From Flavobacterium circumlabens (lineage in GTDB: Bacteria > Bacteroidota > Bacteroidia > Flavobacteriales > Flavobacteriaceae): a stretch of DNA of 64,000 nucleotides. The notes below the pieces were generated by a model. The model saw nothing but the letters and a program-made list of their open reading frames with translations, was not told the DNA's origin and did no database searches. Within the stretch, counting starts at the first letter, position 1; each line of letters begins with the position of its first letter. Location: NCBI RefSeq assembly GCF_004345565.1, contig NZ_SLWA01000001.1:839892-903891 (forward strand), written 5' to 3'. Both the position numbers and the translations under genes were made by a program. This document shows, piece after piece, positions 24,642-62,560 of the stretch.

Positions 24642-25178
24642 TTACATTTTAGCACCTCTGACTTTTTCCAGTTCAGGATAAATTGCGGGCTTAGTTAAGA
24701 AATAAGGATCATAGTTTTCCCCTTCCTTAACAAATGTTGCTGTCCCTGATGCGTCATCAAACTTTATAAATTCGTTTGGTGTGAAATATTTGGATAAATC
24801 TTTTTGCTCTATTTTAAAAGTTCTTCCTTCAAAACTTAATGTTACAGAATTGATTTTAACAGGCTCCTGATCTTTTTTAGAACTGATATCAAAACGAATA
24901 TCATTTGGTAAAATTCCCTCAGGAACACTAAATGTTATCGTTTGCGGTTCATCTTTTCCTTTTACTCCGTAATAAACGGTGTTTTTATCATCAAAAAAAG
25001 AAATGGAAGGGTCTTTATAAAAAAGAATTAATTCATCATCTTTTTTGATGTCTAAATCTACAATTACATCAAATGTATTTGCTTTAACTTCTTCTACAGG
25101 TTTCTCTTCCTCTTTGTTTTTACAGGATATTAAAGAAACTATAACTAATAAATTTAAAAGAATTAATTTTGTTTTCAT
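24642..25178 (-). CDS. Hypothetical lipoprotein
   Basis: About 178 residues. The N-terminus is a lipoprotein signal with lipobox LISC and Cys19, followed by an acidic/basic linker (KNKEEEKPVEEVK). The rest is predicted beta-rich, with repeated strands such as FDVIVDLDIKKDDELILFY. It resembles small secreted beta-sandwich domains but I do not recognise a family. The start is the ATG at 25178; an upstream TTG lies inside the promoter element. Its position between the chain-length-like gene and the flippase suggests a role in surface glycan export, unproven. Confidence 0.8.
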   Translation of the reverse strand: MKTKLILLNLLVIVSLISCKNKEEEKPVEEVKANTFDVIVDLDIKKDDELILFYKDPSISFFDDKNTVYYGVKGKDEPQTITFSVPEGILPNDIRFDISSKKDQEPVKINSVTLSFEGRTFKIEQKDLSKYFTPNEFIKFDDASGTATFVKEGENYDPYFLTKPAIYPELEKVRGAKM

Positions 25179-25193
25179 TTGTAATTTTTTTGG

Positions 25194-25201
25194 CAAAAAT
25201 A
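25194..25201 (-). promoter_or_regulatory. -7 element for the lipoprotein gene
   Basis: TATTTTTG on the minus strand, 15 bases before the ATG at 25178, matches TAnnTTTG and supports that start. Confidence 0.6.
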
Positions 25202-25327
25202 TATTTTTTTTAATATTAAATTATAAAAATGTTTATATAATTCATTGTTATTATACTTCAGAAACAACTATTGCTTCTTTTATTAAATAATTATCTGTTT
25301 TTCAACTCCTTATAGTTTATAAATAAT

Positions 25328-26314
25328 TTAAAGTGTTGGAGAAATTTTAAGTTTCTGTCTTTTATAAAAAGAATTAAAAACAGTCAAAAGTACAAATACG
25401 AAAATAAATACCAGCGGTAATAAAAGTTTTAAATTTCCATTAATAAATTTAGGTGCTTCAATGTTCATCGTTACACTGCTTTCTTTAATAATTTTATCAA
25501 ATCCAATTAATTCAATTTTATGAGTTCCCTGCTCACTCAATAGCAGGTCTTTCGTTTTTATTATATCGTTTAGCTGTGTATTCTCGTTGTTATACAATAA
25601 CTTATCACTTCTGTTCGAATATTTAGTTGCGCTTGAGAAATTACTCAAAACACCATCGATCTGCTTAATTATAGAGTCGTTTTGTCTAATTTTTGAATTT
25701 GTATTCGTACAAACCTGTTTTTGAATTTTTTTGAAATAATCCGATTTATTCAAATAAGCGAACAATGGTTCTATAAGTTTTTCTTCAGATGCTTTTTTCT
25801 TCGTATAAATAATTATTTTTTGAAAAGGATAGTTTTTACTTGTTGTACTTTCTTCAATAACTTTGTTGACATCTCCATCTTCCGCTAATAACTTGAGTAG
25901 TTCGAAATTTTCTGGTTTATTCTTAACAAAATTATAGACGTCCGTAATTGGTTTTATTTTAATTTCATTCAGATTTTTAGGCTCTTTAATACCTACAATT
26001 TCTTTAAGAAAAACAGTATCCCCGGATATAATTTTTGATTCTAATAAATCAATTTTCGAATATAAATAATCAACACTTCCGAAATTTGGCGTTACGATGA
26101 TTTCATTACTATACGCTTTTTTAGCGTCGAAATATAACCCTATAGCAAACCCGGCCACTATTAAAATTAAAACAATAATCCAGTTTCGGACAAAAAACTG
26201 GATTCCATTAAAAATAGAAGCATTAACCGATTCAAAAAAGCTGCCGATTTTTTTAGAAATCTGTGCTAAATCAATTTCCTGATCTTCTTGATTTTGGGGT
26301 ACTTTTGTACTCAT
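25328..26314 (-). CDS. Chain-length-determinant-like membrane protein
   Basis: A 328-residue protein with a transmembrane helix at about 46-65, a mostly helical periplasmic region (70-290) and a second transmembrane helix near 298-316 with a short cytoplasmic tail. This two-helix layout is that of Wzz-type polysaccharide co-polymerases, and the location beside the flippase and polymerases fits. No Wzz proline-rich motif is clear, so the call is by topology and context. It lies nine bases after the DUF6909 gene. Confidence 0.7.
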   Translation of the reverse strand: MSTKVPQNQEDQEIDLAQISKKIGSFFESVNASIFNGIQFFVRNWIIVLILIVAGFAIGLYFDAKKAYSNEIIVTPNFGSVDYLYSKIDLLESKIISGDTVFLKEIVGIKEPKNLNEIKIKPITDVYNFVKNKPENFELLKLLAEDGDVNKVIEESTTSKNYPFQKIIIYTKKKASEEKLIEPLFAYLNKSDYFKKIQKQVCTNTNSKIRQNDSIIKQIDGVLSNFSSATKYSNRSDKLLYNNENTQLNDIIKTKDLLLSEQGTHKIELIGFDKIIKESSVTMNIEAPKFINGNLKLLLPLVFIFVFVLLTVFNSFYKRQKLKISPTL

Positions 26315-40790: not shown

Positions 40791-41057
40791 ATGAAAATTG
40801 TACTGCTTTACTTTTTACTTATAAATACTACCGCTTTTATCCTCGCCGGATATGATAAATATCTGGCAATCAAAAGTAAAAGCAGAATTTCTGAAAATAC
40901 ACTGTTTCTAAGTGCTGCCCTTGGTGGTTCAGCGGGATTAGTATTGGCGATGCTGCTTTTTAGACACAAAATCAGTAAAACGTCTTTTATTCTAAAATTT
41001 GCAATAATTATCCTGATTCAGCTTTTGATATTCCTTAAATGGAAGAATAAAATCTAG
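40791..41057 (+). CDS. DUF1294-like small membrane protein
   Basis: An 88-residue membrane protein with a first helix at about 2-19, the YDKYLAIKSKSRISENTLFLSAALGGS motif (seen in part) typical of DUF1294 proteins, and two further helices (about 40-56 and 63-83). Function unknown. The ATG at 40791 is preferred; the frame extends upstream to 40662 but that part looks non-coding and would overlap the divergent promoter at 40637. Confidence 0.85.
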   Translation: MKIVLLYFLLINTTAFILAGYDKYLAIKSKSRISENTLFLSAALGGSAGLVLAMLLFRHKISKTSFILKFAIIILIQLLIFLKWKNKI

Positions 41058-41120
41058 TTATTAACATTGTTGATAAGTGTAAAAATTATTTTTAATTTAC
41101 TGTATTTAAACTATTTACAT

Positions 41121-41155
41121 AAAAAAACCGGATGAATTTAAAAATCCGCCCGGTT
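41121..41155 (-). terminator. Terminator of rpiB
   Basis: On the minus strand AACCGG...GGAT, loop, ATCCGGTT, then seven T. A second small hairpin GGTGC-GAA-GCACC (41168-41180) followed by eight T after three bases could end the plus-strand DUF1294 transcript. Confidence 0.65.
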
Positions 41156-41197
41156 GTTATACTACTTGGTGCGAAGCACCCGATTTTTTTTGATTTT

Positions 41198-41629
41198 TTA
41201 CTGACAGGCGATTTTATTCACTCTGTTTTGGTGTCTTCCACCTTCAAATGCGGTATTTAAAAAGGTTTCCACTATTTCTACAGCCTGTGGTATCGAGGTA
41301 AAACGTGCCGGAATACTTACAATGTTAGCATCATTATGCAAACGGGTTAAATACGCAATTTCTTTGGTCCAGCATAAACCTGCTCTTACTTTCGGGTGTT
41401 TGTTAACCGTCATCGCAATTCCGTTTCCGCTTCCGCAGATCACAATTCCAAAATCAGCTTTTCCTTCCGTAATATCATTCGCAACCGGATGTCCATAATC
41501 AGGATAATCAACAGAATCTTCAGAATCTGTTCCATAATTAGTTACTTCATAGCCTTTTGCTTTGAGCATCGCAACGATTGCTTTTTTATAATCTGGTCCT
41601 GCGTGGTCGTTTCCTATTGAAATTTTCAT
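41198..41629 (-). CDS. rpiB: Ribose 5-phosphate isomerase B
   Basis: Interconverts ribose 5-phosphate and ribulose 5-phosphate in the pentose phosphate pathway. The 143-residue protein has GNDHAGPDYK (Asp8-His9), the active-site cysteine in VICGSGNGIAM (Cys65) and the phosphate-binding ARFTS segment. Length is standard. It starts at the ATG at 41629 with a TAAATTTG promoter element at 41656-41663. It is the first gene left of the candidate replication origin. Confidence 0.96.
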   Translation of the reverse strand: MKISIGNDHAGPDYKKAIVAMLKAKGYEVTNYGTDSEDSVDYPDYGHPVANDITEGKADFGIVICGSGNGIAMTVNKHPKVRAGLCWTKEIAYLTRLHNDANIVSIPARFTSIPQAVEIVETFLNTAFEGGRHQNRVNKIACQ

Positions 41630-41655
41630 TTTAAATACTATTAAGTTGTGCTTTG

Positions 41656-41663
41656 CAAATTTA
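41656..41663 (-). promoter_or_regulatory. -7 element for rpiB
   Basis: TAAATTTG on the minus strand, 26 bases before the rpiB ATG, matches TAnnTTTG. Confidence 0.55.
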
Positions 41664-41682
41664 CTTAATTAATAAATGTTGG

Positions 41683-41772
41683 CCACGAATTAGACTAATT
41701 TTCACAAATTTTATTCTGTAGACTTTAAAATTATGTTGTACTTTATCCAATATTAATTCGTGAAATTCGTGG
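41683..41772. repeat. Imperfect inverted repeat with CCACGAATT ends
   Basis: The ends CCACGAATT (41683-41691) and AATTCGTGG (41764-41772) are exact complements about 70 bases apart, with further partial complementarity next to them. It resembles interspersed CCACGAATT-type intergenic repeats that I recall from Flavobacterium genomes. Confidence 0.5.
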
Positions 41773-42402
41773 TAAAACATATCAATATATAACTTACATC
41801 ATATCAAAACCTTATCACTTATCAACAATCTTAACATCTCTATAATAACCTGATAATCAATAAGAAATAAATAATCTTTTTGTTAAAATTTTAGAATGTT
41901 AATACCAAAACCTAATTCGTTGATATTCAGTTAACTTTAAATTAACATTATTTGTTAATAAGTTCGGATAGAATATTAGAAGTTTTTTTTGGTTGTGTCG
42001 AAAAAAAACCTAATCCAAAACCGGGATGAAATAACCTAATAAAGTTTGATGAATTTTTAGAAAAGTTATCAATATCAAAAATGCTATTTTCAACAAAAGT
42101 CAACCTATGAACTTATCTACAAATTGAATGTGTTTTTGGTTGTCAACCATTGTTAATTAAAATTGAAAAACGCTTAAAAATTAATCCTTTAACCCAATAT
42201 AAGCATGTTGATAACTCTATATAAGTAAGTAAAACTTCATTTCAATACATTTAAAAATAAATTTATATCACATATTAACACACTATAATAACCATCAAAA
42301 ATTAATTAAATTTAAAATTTCTTTTTTGTTGTATTTAATATATGTTGACAACTTTGAAAGTTTAAAAGAGAAAATTTTTTTTTGAGATTGAAAAAAAACT
42401 GT
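41730..42402. other. Candidate replication origin (oriC)
   Basis: A gene-free, very AT-rich stretch (the gap is 41630-42402). It holds DnaA-box-like nonamers related to TTATCCACA: TTATCAACA at 41819-41827, TTATCTACA at 42113-42121, and on the other strand TTATCAACA at 42206-42214. Weaker ones are TTATCCAAT (41743-41751), TTATCAATA (42066-42074) and TTGTCAACA (reverse of 42343-42351). A further TTATCAACA lies at 41068-41076 (minus). The TTAAC/GTTAA motif recurs around 41880-41960. Gene orientation switches here from mainly minus to mainly plus, and parS sites lie 18 kb away. The boxes are not perfect consensus, hence the moderate confidence. Confidence 0.5.
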
Positions 42403-42636
42403 TTAAACGATTTTAAGCGGGTTATTAAGATTGTCCAGAATTTCCTGTACCTGTTCGAAATCATTGGGATGGATTTTTAGTTTGATTCCGCCAAGCGCAG
42501 CAGAATAAAAAGGAACAACAGATAATGTCATTTCATTTTCAAAAAAATAGGGAATTCCTTCTTGCTCTAATAAATGTTTCAGGATAACCGTTTCGTGGTC
42601 ATAATTGAATATGGCAATCGTTTTAAAGCTTTCCAT
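42403..42636 (-). CDS. DUF2007 small protein
   Basis: A 77-residue protein fitting the DUF2007 (putative signal-transducing) family: KTIAIFNYDHETVILKHLLEQEGIPYFF, then a small ferredoxin-like fold ending LKIHPNDFEQVQEILDNL. Such domains bind or sense unknown ligands and resemble PII-like folds. It has a near-consensus TATCTTTA element 14 bases upstream (42651-42658) and is a single gene between the candidate origin and rnr. Confidence 0.85.
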   Translation of the reverse strand: MESFKTIAIFNYDHETVILKHLLEQEGIPYFFENEMTLSVVPFYSAALGGIKLKIHPNDFEQVQEILDNLNNPLKIV

Positions 42637-42809
42637 AAAAGGTCTTTTTATAAAGATACGAAATGAGCATTACTAAAAATTTGTTGTTTGCAGTAACTAA
42701 ATATACACATTACAAATGACCTTTGAAAGTTATAATTTTAATAATTCTATTTGTTAAAATCTATAATCTGGTATCTTATTTGTAATTTTAACTTTTTAAG
42801 AAAAGATAT

Positions 42810-44990
42810 ATGAATAAGAAAATTCGAAAGCCGATAAAAAATGAGACCGATCTCTCTAGTAAAATAATAAAAATTTTATCGCAAAGCCCTAATAAAGCAT
42901 TTAATTACAAACAGATAGGAGCAAAGCTTGAACTTGATGATACAAAAAGCAGAAATCAGATTATAAAAGATTTAAAAATTCTGGCTGCTTCAAAGAAAAT
43001 TACAGAATCTGAACCTGGTAAATATTTGGTAAAAGCCGAAAGTCAGGATTATTACGAAGGAACAATTGATATGACAAGCCGTAAAACAGCTTATTTTGTT
43101 TGTCCTGATTTTACAGAAGATGTTTTTATCCCGACCAATAATCTGAACCGTGCGCTGGATAAGGACAAAGTAAAAGTGTATGTTTATAACAGAAGAAAAG
43201 GTAAAAGACCTGAAGGAGAAGTAATTGAAGTTGTAGAAAGAAATAAAACTGACTTTGTCGGAGTTATCGATATTCAGGCCAATTTTGCTTTTGTATCTAC
43301 AGCAAATCCTAAAATGTATACCGATATTTTTATCCCAAAAGATAAAATTGGAGAAGCAGAAAACGGTGATGTTGTTTTGGTTACGATAGAAGACTGGCCA
43401 AAAAGAGCCGATAGTCCGTTTGGATCTGTTGTTAAAGTTTTAGGAAAACCAGGAGAACACAACACGGAGATTCATGCCATTTTAGCCGAATATGGTTTAC
43501 CATCAGATTTTCCGGTAGAAGTAGAGGTTTATGCACAAAAGATAGATACCTCAATTCAGGAAGCTGAAATTGCAAAACGTCGTGATATGCGTGATACACT
43601 TACGTTTACGATAGATCCAAAAGATGCAAAAGATTTTGATGATGCCTTATCTTTCAAAAAGTTAGAAAATGGAAATTACGAAATCGGAATTCATATTGCC
43701 GATGTTTCCTATTATCTCGAAGAAGGAACAATTTTAGATGATGAAGCGTATCAACGCGCAACATCGGTTTATTTAGTCGATAGAGTTGTGCCAATGCTTC
43801 CGGAAGTTTTGTCTAATTTTGCATGTTCGTTACGTCCGAATGAAGAAAAATATACGTTCTCTGCTATTTTTGAAGTTTCAGAAAATGCACAGGTGATTAA
43901 CCAGTGGTTTGGCAGAACAGTAATTTATTCCGATCAGCGATTTGCCTATGAGGAAGCACAATATATCATTGAAACCAAAGACAATACAATTCCGGTTGAT
44001 ATTTCAATCACTGGGGAATCTTATGTAGTTTCAGATGAAATTACGAATGCAACTTTAAAATTAGATGAATTAGCTAAGATTTTAAGAAAGAAAAGAATGG
44101 CCAATGGTGCTATTTCTTTTGATAAAGTCGAAGTAAAATTCAACTTAGACGAACAAGGGGAACCGGAAGGCGTTTATTTTAAAGTTTCTAAAGATGCCAA
44201 TCATCTGATTGAAGAATTTATGCTTTTAGCCAACAGAAAAGTGGCAGAATACATTGGTAAACAAAAGAAAACCTTTATTTACAGGATTCACGATGAACCA
44301 AATGAAGATAAATTAATTGCGATGCAAAGCGTAATTGCCAAATTTGGATATAAAATAGATTTCCGTAATAAAGGCGATATTTCGAAATCACTAAATGCTT
44401 TGATGGAAGAAGTAAACGGTAAAAAAGAGCAAAACTTAATTGATACTCTTGCGATTAGAAGTATGAGTAAAGCCAAATATTCGACAGAAAACATTGGTCA
44501 CTACGGTTTAGCTTTTGATTATTACAGTCATTTTACTTCACCAATTCGTCGTTATCCTGACGTGATGGTACACCGTTTGCTGCAATATTATTTAGATAAA
44601 GGAGCATCTGTAAACGAAGAAGTTTATGAAACGAAGTGTTTACACTGTTCGAATATGGAAAGTTTAGCGACTAACGCAGAACGTGACAGTATTAAATATA
44701 TGCAGGTGAAATACATGCAGGATCATCAGGATGAAGAATTCCTTGGCGTTATTTCCGGTGTTACCGAATGGGGGATTTATGTTGAAATCGTCTCTAACAA
44801 ATGCGAGGGAATGGTAAGAATCAGAGAAATAAAAGATGATTATTATACTTTCGATGAAAAGCAGTATGCCCTGGTTGGAGCAACTTCAGATAGTATTTTA
44901 CAACTGGGAGATGAAATATATGTAAAAGTTAAAAATGCTGATTTAGTTAAAAAACAATTGGATTTTCATTTTTTAAGAAGAGCAGAATAG
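42810..44990 (+). CDS. rnr: Ribonuclease R
   Basis: A 3'-5' exoribonuclease that degrades structured RNA in the cytosol. The 726-residue protein has a winged-helix N-terminus (about 15-75), cold-shock domains (about 80-240), the RNB catalytic domain with IDPKDAKDFDDA (268-279; metal-binding Asp269, 275, 277, 278) and a C-terminal S1 domain (about 640-720). HFTSPIRRYPDVMVHR is the conserved RNB end motif. It is the first gene right of the candidate origin, co-directional with fork movement. It is followed 24 bases later by the DUF2807 gene. Confidence 0.97.
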   Translation: MNKKIRKPIKNETDLSSKIIKILSQSPNKAFNYKQIGAKLELDDTKSRNQIIKDLKILAASKKITESEPGKYLVKAESQDYYEGTIDMTSRKTAYFVCPDFTEDVFIPTNNLNRALDKDKVKVYVYNRRKGKRPEGEVIEVVERNKTDFVGVIDIQANFAFVSTANPKMYTDIFIPKDKIGEAENGDVVLVTIEDWPKRADSPFGSVVKVLGKPGEHNTEIHAILAEYGLPSDFPVEVEVYAQKIDTSIQEAEIAKRRDMRDTLTFTIDPKDAKDFDDALSFKKLENGNYEIGIHIADVSYYLEEGTILDDEAYQRATSVYLVDRVVPMLPEVLSNFACSLRPNEEKYTFSAIFEVSENAQVINQWFGRTVIYSDQRFAYEEAQYIIETKDNTIPVDISITGESYVVSDEITNATLKLDELAKILRKKRMANGAISFDKVEVKFNLDEQGEPEGVYFKVSKDANHLIEEFMLLANRKVAEYIGKQKKTFIYRIHDEPNEDKLIAMQSVIAKFGYKIDFRNKGDISKSLNALMEEVNGKKEQNLIDTLAIRSMSKAKYSTENIGHYGLAFDYYSHFTSPIRRYPDVMVHRLLQYYLDKGASVNEEVYETKCLHCSNMESLATNAERDSIKYMQVKYMQDHQDEEFLGVISGVTEWGIYVEIVSNKCEGMVRIREIKDDYYTFDEKQYALVGATSDSILQLGDEIYVKVKNADLVKKQLDFHFLRRAE

Positions 44991-49543: not shown

Positions 49544-49573
49544 AAAAAGCGCTTATCATAAGCGCTTTTTTTA
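49544..49573 (+). terminator. Intrinsic terminator after glnS
   Basis: AAAAAGCGCTTA, loop TCA, TAAGCGCTTTTT plus further T. Confidence 0.92.
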
Positions 49574-49618
49574 TTATTTAAAATTTCTATTAAAAATTAT
49601 AAAATTATAAATTTTTTA

Positions 49619-50290
49619 GATTAAAATTGACCTTCATAAATTAATTTTAAGCTGTTTTTTTATTTCTTCCACCTCGTTAATCCTCTTTTAAAAAATCATT
49701 AAACAGAACGCTTTATTTTAGTTTTAGATGTCATTTTTGCTTGTTTTTCGGGTTATTAACATATGATTGTTTATAACGTTAAATCAAGATGGATTTGTTA
49801 TAAAATTTAAAATTTTACTTTTTACCTGAGCAATTTTTTAAAATTCTAAATTTTAGTATAATCAATTTTAACTATCGTATTTGTATATGTAATGTTTTTA
49901 ATTATTATTTAGTAAAACTATCATTATTATAATTTTGATAATATAATTCGATTAAAAGTGACCTTCATAAATTGATTTTAAGACGCTTTTTTATTTCTTC
50001 CATAACATTAATCATCTTTTGAATTATTGTTTATTTTTAAGCTTTATTTAAGCTTTAGACCTTATTTTTCTTAGTTTAACGGGTTATTAACATACAATTG
50101 TTTATAAAGTTGCTACTTTTATCCAAGGTCAAATCTAAAGTGTCAAATTTCTGAAAAACACTTAGAATCGAATCTGAGTTTTTCTAAAATTTAAAAATGA
50201 ATAATTTTTTGTTTTTGGAGGGAATTCAAAATCTGAATTCAAAATTAGTTTTATGGTCAATTGTAATTATGATCGTATTTTGATAATACT
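49619..50290. repeat. Diverged tandem duplication of a ~331-base non-coding unit
   Basis: In the long gene gap 49527-50420, the stretch starting at 49619 is repeated from 49950. The best-conserved 160 bases of each copy (49619-49780 and 49950-50111) share GACCTTCATAAATT, TTTATTTCTTCC and GGGTTATTAACATA. The later parts also align (CAATTTTAACTATCGTATTTG against CAATTGTAATTATGATCGTATTTTG in pieces). The second copy ends in a small ORF and a hairpin terminator. No large ORF exists in either copy. Confidence 0.75.
50197..50283 (+). CDS. Possible 28-residue hydrophobic small protein
   Basis: An ATG-initiated frame within the second copy of the duplicated unit encodes 28 residues: a polar start (MNNFLFLEGIQNLNSK) and a hydrophobic end (LVLWSIVIMIVF) that could span a membrane. 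Its stop lies one base before a terminator hairpin. The matching part of the first copy has lost the ATG and has deletions. A near-promoter TACTTTTA lies at 50114-50121. It may be a small membrane protein, a type I toxin-like peptide or chance; the size alone cannot decide. Confidence 0.3.
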   Translation: MNNFLFLEGIQNLNSKLVLWSIVIMIVF

Positions 50291-59833: not shown

Positions 59834-60249
59834 TCAATTTTAATTACGAAACAGAATTTAATTTAGATAACGAAGAAGCCTTTTCTAATTGGTTGAGTGC
59901 TGTAATTGTTTCTGAAAATAAAAACGAAGGAGAGATAAATTATATATTTTGTGATGATGAGTATCTTCATAAAATCAATGTTGAATATCTGAATCACGAT
60001 ACACTTACAGATATTATCAGTTTTGATTATACAGTGGGTAATGAATTAAACGGAGATATTTTTGTTTCTGTCGAAAGAGTGGAAGACAATGCGAAAGATT
60101 TTAAGGTTTCTTTTGAAGAGGAATTGAAACGCGTTTTAGCTCACGGTATATTACATTACTGTGGATACAAAGATAAAACTGAAGCAGACGCAGATTTAAT
60201 GCGTTCAAAGGAAGATGAAAAAATTGCCATGTTCCACGTGGAACTATAA
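59830..60249 (+). CDS. ybeY: Endoribonuclease YbeY
   Basis: A metal-dependent endoRNase for 16S rRNA 3' maturation and ribosome quality control. The 139-residue protein has the C-terminal zinc motif HGILHYCGYKD (105-115). The first two ligands, His105 and His109, are in place, but the third position of H-G-x-L-H-x5-H is Asp115, not His. The ATG overlaps the DUF4175 stop by four bases, so translation is coupled. The last codons (MFHVEL) lie inside a parS palindrome at 60230-60245. Confidence 0.93.
   Translation: MINFNYETEFNLDNEEAFSNWLSAVIVSENKNEGEINYIFCDDEYLHKINVEYLNHDTLTDIISFDYTVGNELNGDIFVSVERVEDNAKDFKVSFEEELKRVLAHGILHYCGYKDKTEADADLMRSKEDEKIAMFHVEL
60230..60245. promoter_or_regulatory. parS site 1 (ParB-binding)
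   Basis: TGTTCCACGTGGAACT, one base off the TGTTCCACGTGGAACA palindrome. It covers the last sense codons of ybeY (encoding MFHVEL), so sequence here is under both protein and DNA constraint. Confidence 0.8.
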
Positions 60250-60279
60250 CTTAAATTACTAATAATTTCTAGAAAAATA

Positions 60280-60295
60280 CGTTCCACGTGAAACA
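60280..60295. promoter_or_regulatory. parS site 2
   Basis: CGTTCCACGTGAAACA, 15 of 16 to the B. subtilis consensus TGTTNCACGTGAAACA. Confidence 0.88.
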
Positions 60296-60318
60296 TTTTA
60301 AATTTAATCTTATTCAGA

Positions 60319-60334
60319 TGTTCCACGTGAAACA
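60319..60334. promoter_or_regulatory. parS site 3
   Basis: TGTTCCACGTGAAACA, an exact match to the consensus TGTTNCACGTGAAACA. Confidence 0.93.
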
Positions 60335-60362
60335 TTAAAATCTTAGAAATTAACTCTTAACA

Positions 60363-60378
60363 TGTTTCACGTGGAACA
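60363..60378. promoter_or_regulatory. parS site 4
   Basis: TGTTTCACGTGGAACA, whose reverse complement TGTTCCACGTGAAACA is an exact consensus match. Confidence 0.93.
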
Positions 60379-60433
60379 TGTGCGAAAGGTTTTTTGGTTG
60401 TAAGGTTTGTTAAATTTTTAATAGGTTTTAATC

Positions 60434-60449
60434 TGTTCCACGTGGAACA
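60434..60449. promoter_or_regulatory. parS site 5
   Basis: TGTTCCACGTGGAACA, a perfect 16-base palindrome, one base from the consensus half-site. Confidence 0.88.
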
Positions 60450-60522
60450 GATTGTGTTGTGTGGTTTGGAATTTGGTATTTTATGCTTGAAAATTTAAAG
60501 ATTGATTTTTGCGCGTAAGCGC

Positions 60523-60538
60523 CGTTCCACGTGGAACA
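60523..60538. promoter_or_regulatory. parS site 6
   Basis: CGTTCCACGTGGAACA, 15 of 16 to the palindromic form. It closes the cluster 62 bases before mnmG. The gap 60250-60600 holds only these sites and AT-rich filler. Confidence 0.85.
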
Positions 60539-60600
60539 AAAGTTTATAAAGTTAATTCTGAGAACCAACTTAACCGGTTTTCAGAGAATAGTAAAACAAA

Positions 60601-62472
60601 ATGTTTTTAGAAGAATACGATGTTATTGTGGTGGGTGCTGGCCATGCTGGTTCTGAAGCCGCGGCAGCGGCCGCAAATTTAGGATCAAAAACTTTATTGG
60701 TAACAATGAGTTTGCAAAACATTGCACAGATGTCCTGCAATCCTGCGATGGGTGGAATTGCGAAAGGACAGATAGTTCGGGAGATTGATGCACTTGGAGG
60801 ATACTCCGGAATTGTTTCAGATAAAACTGCTATCCAGTTCAAAATGTTGAACAAATCGAAAGGGCCTGCGATGTGGTCGCCAAGAGTTCAAAGTGACCGA
60901 ATGCGTTTTGCTGAAGAATGGAGAATGATGCTGGAGGGAACTCCCGATCTTGATTTTTACCAGGAGATGGTAAAAGGTTTGATTATCGAAAACGGAAAAA
61001 TAAAGGGAATCAAAACTTCGCTTGGAATTGAAATCCGTTCTAAGTCGGTAGTCCTTACAAATGGAACTTTTTTAAATGGTTTGATTCATATTGGAGATAA
61101 ACAATTCGGAGGAGGAAGAGCAGGTGAGAGTGCTGCGTATGGGATCACGGAAGATTTGGTTGCTGTGGGTTTTGAATCCGGAAGAATGAAAACAGGAACT
61201 CCGCCACGTGTTGATGGACGCTCTTTGGATTATTCTAAAATGAACGAAGAAAAAGGAGATGCGAAACCGGATAAGTTTTCATACTCAGATGTGACGTCAC
61301 CTTTGGTTCACCAGAGATCTTGTCACATGACGTACACGTCTTTGGATGTTCATGATATTTTGAGATCGGGTTTTGATCGTTCGCCAATGTTCAACGGACG
61401 TATCAAAAGTATCGGTCCAAGATATTGCCCATCGATAGAAGATAAAATAAATCGCTTTGCTGATAAAGAGCGCCACCAATTATTTGTAGAACCGGAAGGA
61501 TGGAATACCTGTGAGGTTTACGTAAACGGATTTTCAACTTCACTGCCCGAAGATATTCAATTTAAAGCATTGCGTTCTGTAGCCGGTTTTGAGAAGGTGA
61601 AGTTTTTTCGTCCGGGTTATGCGATCGAATATGACTATTTTCCACCAACACAATTGAAACATACTTTGGAAACAAAACTGGTGGAAGGTTTGTATTTTGC
61701 CGGACAAATAAATGGAACGACAGGATATGAAGAAGCTGCATCGCAAGGATTGATGGCGGGAATTAATGCGCATTTAAAAGTGCATGAAAAAGCGCCGTTG
61801 ATTTTGAAACGTGATGAAGCATACATCGGAGTTTTAATAGACGACTTAATTACGAAAGGAACAGAAGAACCGTATCGAATGTTTACCTCTCGTGCAGAGT
61901 ACAGAACATTGTTGCGTCAGGATAATGCCGATTTCAGATTAACGCCAATGTCACATGAAATTGGTTTGGCTTCTGAAAAACGTTTACGCAGAATGGAACA
62001 TAAATTAAATGAGTCTGAAAAAATGGTTGCCTTTTTCAAAGAAACAAGTGTTTCTGTTGGAGAGGCAAATCCGATTTTAGAATCTAAAGATACCGCGCTG
62101 ATTACGCAAGGGGATAAAATGTTTAAGGTTTTCTCTCGTCCTCAGATTGACTTGGAAGATATCATGAAGTTTGAGAAAGTAGCAGCTTACATAACGGAGA
62201 ACGATCTGGATCAGGAAATTTTAGAGCAAGCCGAAATTCAGGTGAAATATTCCGGCTACATAGAAAAGGAAAGAAATAACGCAGACAAGTTGACAAGACT
62301 TGAAGAAGTGAAAATCCCGGAAAATTTCGATTACAATAAAATCAAATCGATGTCTATTGAAGCAAAACAGAAACTAAGTAAAATCCGTCCTGTTACCATT
62401 TCGCAAGCTTCAAGAATTAGTGGTGTTTCTCCAAGTGATATTTCTGTCTTGTTAATCTATATGGGAAGGTAG
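60601..62472 (+). CDS. mnmG: tRNA uridine-5-carboxymethylaminomethyl modification enzyme MnmG (GidA)
   Basis: With MnmE, MnmG (GidA) makes the cmnm5 modification of wobble uridine in tRNAs. The 623-residue protein has the FAD-binding GAGHAGSEA (12-20), the family's SCNPAMGGIAKG segment (near 43-54) and the GNMGxG-like and C-terminal helical domain, seen as KIRPVTISQASRISGVSPSDISVLLIYMGR. It starts at the ATG at 60601. mnmG is typically close to the replication origin in many bacteria. It sits between parS sites, and the region after its stop holds one more. Confidence 0.96.
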   Translation: MFLEEYDVIVVGAGHAGSEAAAAAANLGSKTLLVTMSLQNIAQMSCNPAMGGIAKGQIVREIDALGGYSGIVSDKTAIQFKMLNKSKGPAMWSPRVQSDRMRFAEEWRMMLEGTPDLDFYQEMVKGLIIENGKIKGIKTSLGIEIRSKSVVLTNGTFLNGLIHIGDKQFGGGRAGESAAYGITEDLVAVGFESGRMKTGTPPRVDGRSLDYSKMNEEKGDAKPDKFSYSDVTSPLVHQRSCHMTYTSLDVHDILRSGFDRSPMFNGRIKSIGPRYCPSIEDKINRFADKERHQLFVEPEGWNTCEVYVNGFSTSLPEDIQFKALRSVAGFEKVKFFRPGYAIEYDYFPPTQLKHTLETKLVEGLYFAGQINGTTGYEEAASQGLMAGINAHLKVHEKAPLILKRDEAYIGVLIDDLITKGTEEPYRMFTSRAEYRTLLRQDNADFRLTPMSHEIGLASEKRLRRMEHKLNESEKMVAFFKETSVSVGEANPILESKDTALITQGDKMFKVFSRPQIDLEDIMKFEKVAAYITENDLDQEILEQAEIQVKYSGYIEKERNNADKLTRLEEVKIPENFDYNKIKSMSIEAKQKLSKIRPVTISQASRISGVSPSDISVLLIYMGR

Positions 62473-62544
62473 TTTTTTAGTTTACAGTCGCAGTCTCAGT
62501 TCACATACAGCGGCAAACGGAGACTGTAAACCGAGACTAAAAAT

Positions 62545-62560
62545 TGTTCCACGTGAAACT
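62545..62560. promoter_or_regulatory. parS site 7
   Basis: TGTTCCACGTGAAACT, 15 of 16 to the consensus, located after mnmG and about 2 kb from the main cluster. Confidence 0.85.

Follow-up and report, generated by a model that had tools for sequence, protein, structure and literature searches.

The intergenic gap at positions 41630-42402 of a 64,000-nucleotide window from Flavobacterium circumlabens is, judged from its sequence, very probably the chromosomal replication origin (oriC) of a Flavobacterium. The evidence consists of a cluster of DnaA-box-like sites, a switch in GC skew, a cluster of parS sites and a conserved non-coding core (42274-42297), and it supports the candidate origin that a first-pass annotation of the same DNA had placed in this gap. 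A DnaA-dependent origin usually has an array of boxes, a stretch rich in A+T, forks that diverge from it and parS sites close by. Of the features by which such origins are recognized, an intergenic box cluster, a GC-skew switch and nearby parS were all found here. Linkage to dnaA was not found, as the gap is distant from this gene, which lies on another contig of the F. circumlabens genome.

In the proposed mechanism, DnaA made from the gene on the other contig would bind about ten TTATYAACA-like boxes spread over 530 bp, and would open the A+T-rich 45 bp beside the conserved core (42274-42342). Helicase loading and initiation would take place at the gap, two forks would depart in opposite directions, and segregation of the new origins would rely on ParB bound to the parS sites at a distance of 18-20 kb.

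The gap and its neighbouring genes

The gap comprises 773 bp with a GC content of 0.22, and its longest internal open reading frame encodes 51 amino acids, which confirms the earlier description of a gene-free, AT-rich stretch. Its left neighbour is rpiB (41198-41629, minus strand; PF02502, E 2.3e-57). The gap had been described as lying between rpiB and rnr. Both genes do flank it, but a small DUF2007-like open reading frame of 77 amino acids (42403-42636, minus strand; PF09413, 24.5 bits, just below the cut-off of 25.7) intervenes before rnr, the gene for ribonuclease R (42810-44990, plus strand; RNB domain, E 8.7e-111). Among the matches listed, the nearest named loci are those of F. frigidimaris (L191), with 97% identity for rpiB and rnr. 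A change in gene orientation at the gap had also been noted, with 30 of 39 genes on the minus strand to the left and 14 of 17 on the plus strand to the right. Our count of non-nested open reading frames of at least 90 amino acids, picked by eye, gave the same picture (27 of 34 minus to the left, 12 of 15 plus to the right).

DnaA-box-like sites

The gap contains ten sites with at most one mismatch to TTATNMACA, located between 41819 and 42351. They include the three nonamers named in the first-pass annotation, namely TTATCAACA at 41819-41827 (plus strand), TTATCTACA at 42113-42121 (plus strand) and TTATCAACA at 42206-42214 (minus strand). As that annotation had conceded, these boxes are imperfect: all are TTATCAACA or TTATCTACA, and none equals the Escherichia coli consensus TTATCCACA. 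Further sites are TTATTAACA at 41953-41961 (minus strand), and the weaker TTATCAATA at 42066-42074 (plus strand) and TTGTCAACA at 42343-42351 (minus strand), each with one mismatch.

Across the whole window the motif TTATCNACA is only mildly enriched, since it occurs seven times against 3.14 expected and four of 100 shuffles reached seven copies. Three of these seven copies are inside the 773-bp gap. As a background for the gap itself, we used 14,364 overlapping windows of 772 bp from 38 sampled stretches of the F. circumlabens genome. Exact TTATYHACA occurs four times in the gap, compared with a background mean of 0.08 and a maximum of 2, and the three exact copies of TTATNMACA were reached by a fraction of only 0.00007 of the background windows. 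With one mismatch allowed, the gap holds ten boxes against background means of 2.16-2.54. For TTATNMACA (mean 2.54) this number was reached by 0.00014 of the windows. The corresponding fractions for TTATYHACA were 0.00042 overall and 0.00244 among the 410 A+T-rich windows. These background counts indicate that the exact boxes are clearly clustered, and the weak copies less strikingly so.

Related loci carry similar boxes. In gaps selected by their position next to rpiB, TTATC[ACT]ACA was found at least once in 21 of 29 and at least twice in 12 of 29, where about 0.05 copies were expected in each; it was missing from the other eight. Among the loci listed that share the conserved core, windows adjacent to the core had a mean of 3.38 TTATYHACA boxes and 67 of 72 had two or more, although the core itself contributes one such box in some of them. 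Control windows of these loci had a mean of 0.297, and only 19 of 444 had two or more. Several boxes also keep their distance to the core in the 78 loci listed, which belong to related species and are thus not independent. The offset of -455 (41819-41827) was kept in 18 loci, -321 (41953-41961) in 27, and both -161 (42113-42121) and -68 (42206-42214) in 29. On the other side of the core, boxes at +69/70 were found in 27 loci, and TGTTGANAAY, the pattern of the inverted box at 42343-42351, was found at +68 to +70 in 44. The weak box at 42066-42074 is conserved in the alignment described below.

GC skew, parS sites and the position of dnaA

Within the window, cumulative GC skew reaches its minimum at 42321, inside the gap and 27 bp from the core. 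The purine minimum is also inside the gap (41956), and the cumulative keto minimum is outside it (24522). Elsewhere on the same 1.09-Mb contig, 12 of 14 sampled stretches to the left of the window had negative skew (the exceptions were +0.008 and +0.057), and all four sampled stretches to the right were positive.

Because the F. circumlabens assembly consists of 33 unordered contigs, from which a global minimum is not computable, skew along the chromosome was sampled in relatives assembled as a single contig. The first-pass annotation had taken a skew minimum elsewhere on the chromosome as a sign against an origin here. In two relatives of the same genus (G010 and G036), skew changed from negative to positive beside rpiB and not at dnaA. 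In G010, seven of the eight stretches sampled between 1 bp and 1.02 Mb were negative (one left stretch was +0.014), 4-kb pieces across rpiB had values of -0.125, -0.100, -0.056, +0.106 and +0.167, and all six stretches from 1.06 to 1.92 Mb were positive. Farther round this chromosome, skew was negative at 2.2 Mb, positive at 2.5 Mb and negative from 2.8 to 3.4 Mb. In G036, six of seven stretches up to 0.86 Mb were negative, the switch fell inside the rpiB stretch, and all eight stretches from 0.88 to 2.2 Mb were positive, followed by values near zero at 2.5 and 2.8 Mb and negative values thereafter. The change was also found at rpiB in G038, from another family of the same order, where five stretches were sampled: adjacent 2-kb pieces at rpiB changed from -0.137 to +0.254. 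The gap of G038 has a GC content of 0.195 and four TTATNNACA sites, and lacks the core. A fourth relative, G022 of the same genus, had patchy skew in which no clear global switch was visible, only a rise confined to the vicinity of rpiB at 1,077 kb.

The skew minima also bear on how precisely the origin can be placed. Skew locates origins only roughly, the parS sites lie to one side, and the window has other intergenic sequences just as rich in A+T, so that an origin some kilobases away and outside the gap could be envisaged. Yet the minima are 27 bp from the core in F. circumlabens, 34 bp in G010 (1,040,057) and 244 bp in G036 (871,230), and the cluster of exact boxes sits in the gap itself, which makes a nearby position outside the gap highly improbable.

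A parS cluster had been reported 18 kb from the gap. Seven parS-like sites occur at 60230-62560 (plus strand), at distances of 18-20 kb. Three of them match TGTTYCACGTGRAACA perfectly and four have one mismatch, and no other site in the 5.76-Mb genome comes as close to this sequence. At two mismatches, three further places in the genome matched. Six of the seven sites form an unusually dense array within 309 bp (60230-60538), from the end of ybeY to the gap before mnmG (gidA), and the seventh (62545-62560) lies past mnmG. The parB gene is on contig C5, which leaves it without a defined position with respect to the gap.

As the first-pass annotation had stated, dnaA is absent from the window; contig C12 carries the genome's sole PF00308 match. 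In many bacteria the origin lies beside dnaA, and GC skew is coupled to gene orientation, so the gap could be a mere change in gene orientation that drags the skew along. Around dnaA of F. circumlabens the skew indeed climbs from about -0.1 to about zero, without lasting positive values. In G010 and G036, however, where the dnaA domain starts at position 415, dnaA lies inside the minus arm and both of its neighbours on the circle are negative or near zero. The switch on the rpiB side is 1.04 Mb from dnaA in G010 and 0.87 Mb in G036, and the distance from dnaA to the rpiB gap is 1.18 Mb in G038. Moreover, of the dnaA loci retrieved, L121 and L122 contain no TTATNMACA site, L001 one and L120 three, and the parS sites are on the side of the gap, away from dnaA. 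With the switch and parS on the side of the gap, and dnaA in the minus arm of both relatives, we rejected an origin beside dnaA as exceedingly unlikely.

Sequence records of this group often open at dnaA, as in four of the seven single-contig relatives. In the two relatives tested, this opening point and the proposed true start are about 0.9-1.0 Mb apart. Once an origin is located, growth rate, replication timing and gene dosage can be derived from read depth.

A conserved core in the gap

We aligned gaps of related loci that were anchored on rpiB alone, without selection by motif. Of 30 loci, 24 were used; L061 and L068 were too short, L054 and L067 had no rnr match, and in L076 and L077 rnr was near rpiB. 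Positions 41670-41789 were poorly conserved (mean majority 0.24-0.36) and positions 41870-42349 well conserved (0.71-0.85). The best-conserved block was the core at 42274-42297 (plus strand), ATTAACAnnCTATAATAACMAnnA, which was recovered in a scan of public genomes as well. It consists of a box-like half (ATTAACA), two variable bases, a C, and five triplets whose middle A is conserved. These middle positions (42285, 42288, 42291, 42294 and 42297) were A in 24, 24, 23, 24 and 24 of the 24 rows, and columns 42293, 42295 and 42296 were variable. Most of the period-three signal comes from the last two triplets, with 42294 and 42297 fixed, since in the first three almost every position is conserved.

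A conserved gap could alternatively be a promoter or regulatory region, or an RNA gene, serving rpiB, the small open reading frame or rnr. Since rpiB and rnr diverge, promoters must lie in the gap, and the 40 bp adjoining rpiB are conserved (0.71). However, conservation peaks at 41870-42350, off rpiB and behind the stop of the small open reading frame, and a search of Rfam across 41000-43000 gave no match. In two of the 24 same-genus genomes with the core, G009 (C1:561796) and G011 (C1:550938), the core is 15-17 kb from rpiB; hence, origin and rpiB can be parted. A regulatory region or RNA gene would also leave the skew switch and the parS sites unexplained. With its conservation off rpiB, no Rfam match, and skew and parS unaccounted for, this reading was rejected as very unlikely, in favour of an origin in the gap.

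The core sequence ATTAACAnnCTATAATAACMA (42274-42294) is single-copy in the F. circumlabens genome at up to two mismatches. The same search was applied to 46 of 60 genomes, of which 28 were from the same genus (F. circumlabens included) and 18 from other families; G003, G014, G021, G023, G026, G028, G031, G034, G035, G039, G041, G043, G051 and G054 were left out. The core was present in 24 of the 28 same-genus genomes, and in 22 it was within 2 kb of an rpiB match (a partial match in G002). At up to two mismatches it was not found in G018, G020, G022 and G027. In G022 (L077, L273-L287) and G027 (L076), rnr starts about 0.2 kb from rpiB and the core is absent, and the skew of G022 is patchy; in these two genomes the origin may have moved or changed. 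Six of the 18 genomes from other families matched, five on a contig other than that of rpiB and one 0.59 Mb away from it. We take these matches as chance, because a backward control pattern matched about as often.

A scan of public genomes with the core, using one genome per species, returned at least 117 stretches, of which no fewer than 80 were loci. Among the 80 loci listed, 78 adjoin rpiB and/or rnr (63 both genes, 8 rpiB and 7 rnr). The two loci with neither gene were titled Bacilli and Mucilaginibacter MAG; the titles of the rest listed were mostly Flavobacterium, Winogradskyella, Tenacibaculum, Zobellia, Maribacter and other Flavobacteriaceae. From the matches obtained, the exact core looks like a feature of Flavobacteriaceae, and a location beside rpiB was seen once beyond this family, in G038. 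A core profile was built from 74 of the 80 loci, leaving out the two without rpiB or rnr (L143 and L204) and four that were too short. The unbiased count of conservation is that of the rpiB-anchored alignment, because the search word itself fixes most of the core in the fetched loci.

The A+T-rich stretch and the proposed opening of the origin

Between the core and the inverted box lies an A+T-rich stretch at 42298-42342, a putative unwinding element at which the DNA would melt. Nearly no column of this stretch prefers G or C in the 74 loci listed, and only five 100-bp stretches of the window are less stable than positions 42243-42342. The layout is suggestive of an opening module shared by the origins of Flavobacteriaceae, composed of ATTAACA, two variable bases, C, five middle-A triplets (TAT AAT AAC MAN YAN), about 45 bp of A+T and the inverted box, but we consider such a module rather unlikely. 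The core offers a short, defined target for testing origin opening in these bacteria.

Unwinding elements of the E. coli type contain T-rich single-strand DnaA sites. The other strand of the core, GTTATTATAG, with TTATT, looks similar to these sites; this is a resemblance only. The basal unwinding system (BUS) is described as a DnaA box, a spacer and DnaA-trios, with the trios on the 5' tail leading away from the box; its recognition requires three or more NAN trios that run in the 3' to 5' direction from a box within 16 bp (PMC8287927). Like the BUS described there, the core has a box-like ATTAACA, a short spacer and middle-A triplets beside A+T-rich DNA (PMC8287927). In contrast to the BUS, its five NAN triplets have reversed polarity, since they sit on the strand that has its 5' side toward the box, and the far-side box is 45 bp from the core, beyond the 16-bp limit (PMC8287927). 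If the shared module outlined above exists, its polarity would thus be opposite to that of the BUS, and DnaA or another initiator would load on the single-stranded triplets in a different geometry.

Comparison with known origins

Blattabacterium belongs to the same order as Flavobacterium. For a Blattabacterium endosymbiont, the cited passage reports that neither dnaA nor boxes were found (PMC2768785). The oriC of Bacteroidetes is commonly far from dnaA, according to a passage that cites DoriC and concerns, for example, Prevotella intermedia OMA14 (PMC4755523). In Elizabethkingia meningoseptica, the predicted oriC is given at 740,720-741,368 and dnaA at 2,613,273-2,614,727 (PMC8994065). Like the present gap, these origins were predicted from a GC-skew switch and DnaA boxes, with dnaA elsewhere (PMC4755523, PMC8994065). 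The respective passages name neither rpiB nor rnr. As the separation of oriC and dnaA in Bacteroidetes is in print (PMC4755523), the locus is a further example of a known, dnaA-distant type. The new detail is the conserved core, which can also serve as a DNA word to find the locus in draft genomes. Among the papers listed, none designates the gap between rpiB and rnr, or the core, as an origin; this negative is weak, and DoriC may list the locus.

Other features of the gap and the window

The gap is not unique in its A+T richness, and the window has several intergenic sequences of lower stability. The two least stable 500-bp stretches are 49568-50067 and 25012-25511, both less stable than the proposed origin. 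On the rpiB side of the gap, outside its conserved part, positions 41677-41770 contain a dispersed repeat of about 30-40 bp (beginning CCACGAATTA), of which similar copies with 84-91% identity occur on contigs C1, C2, C4 and C10.
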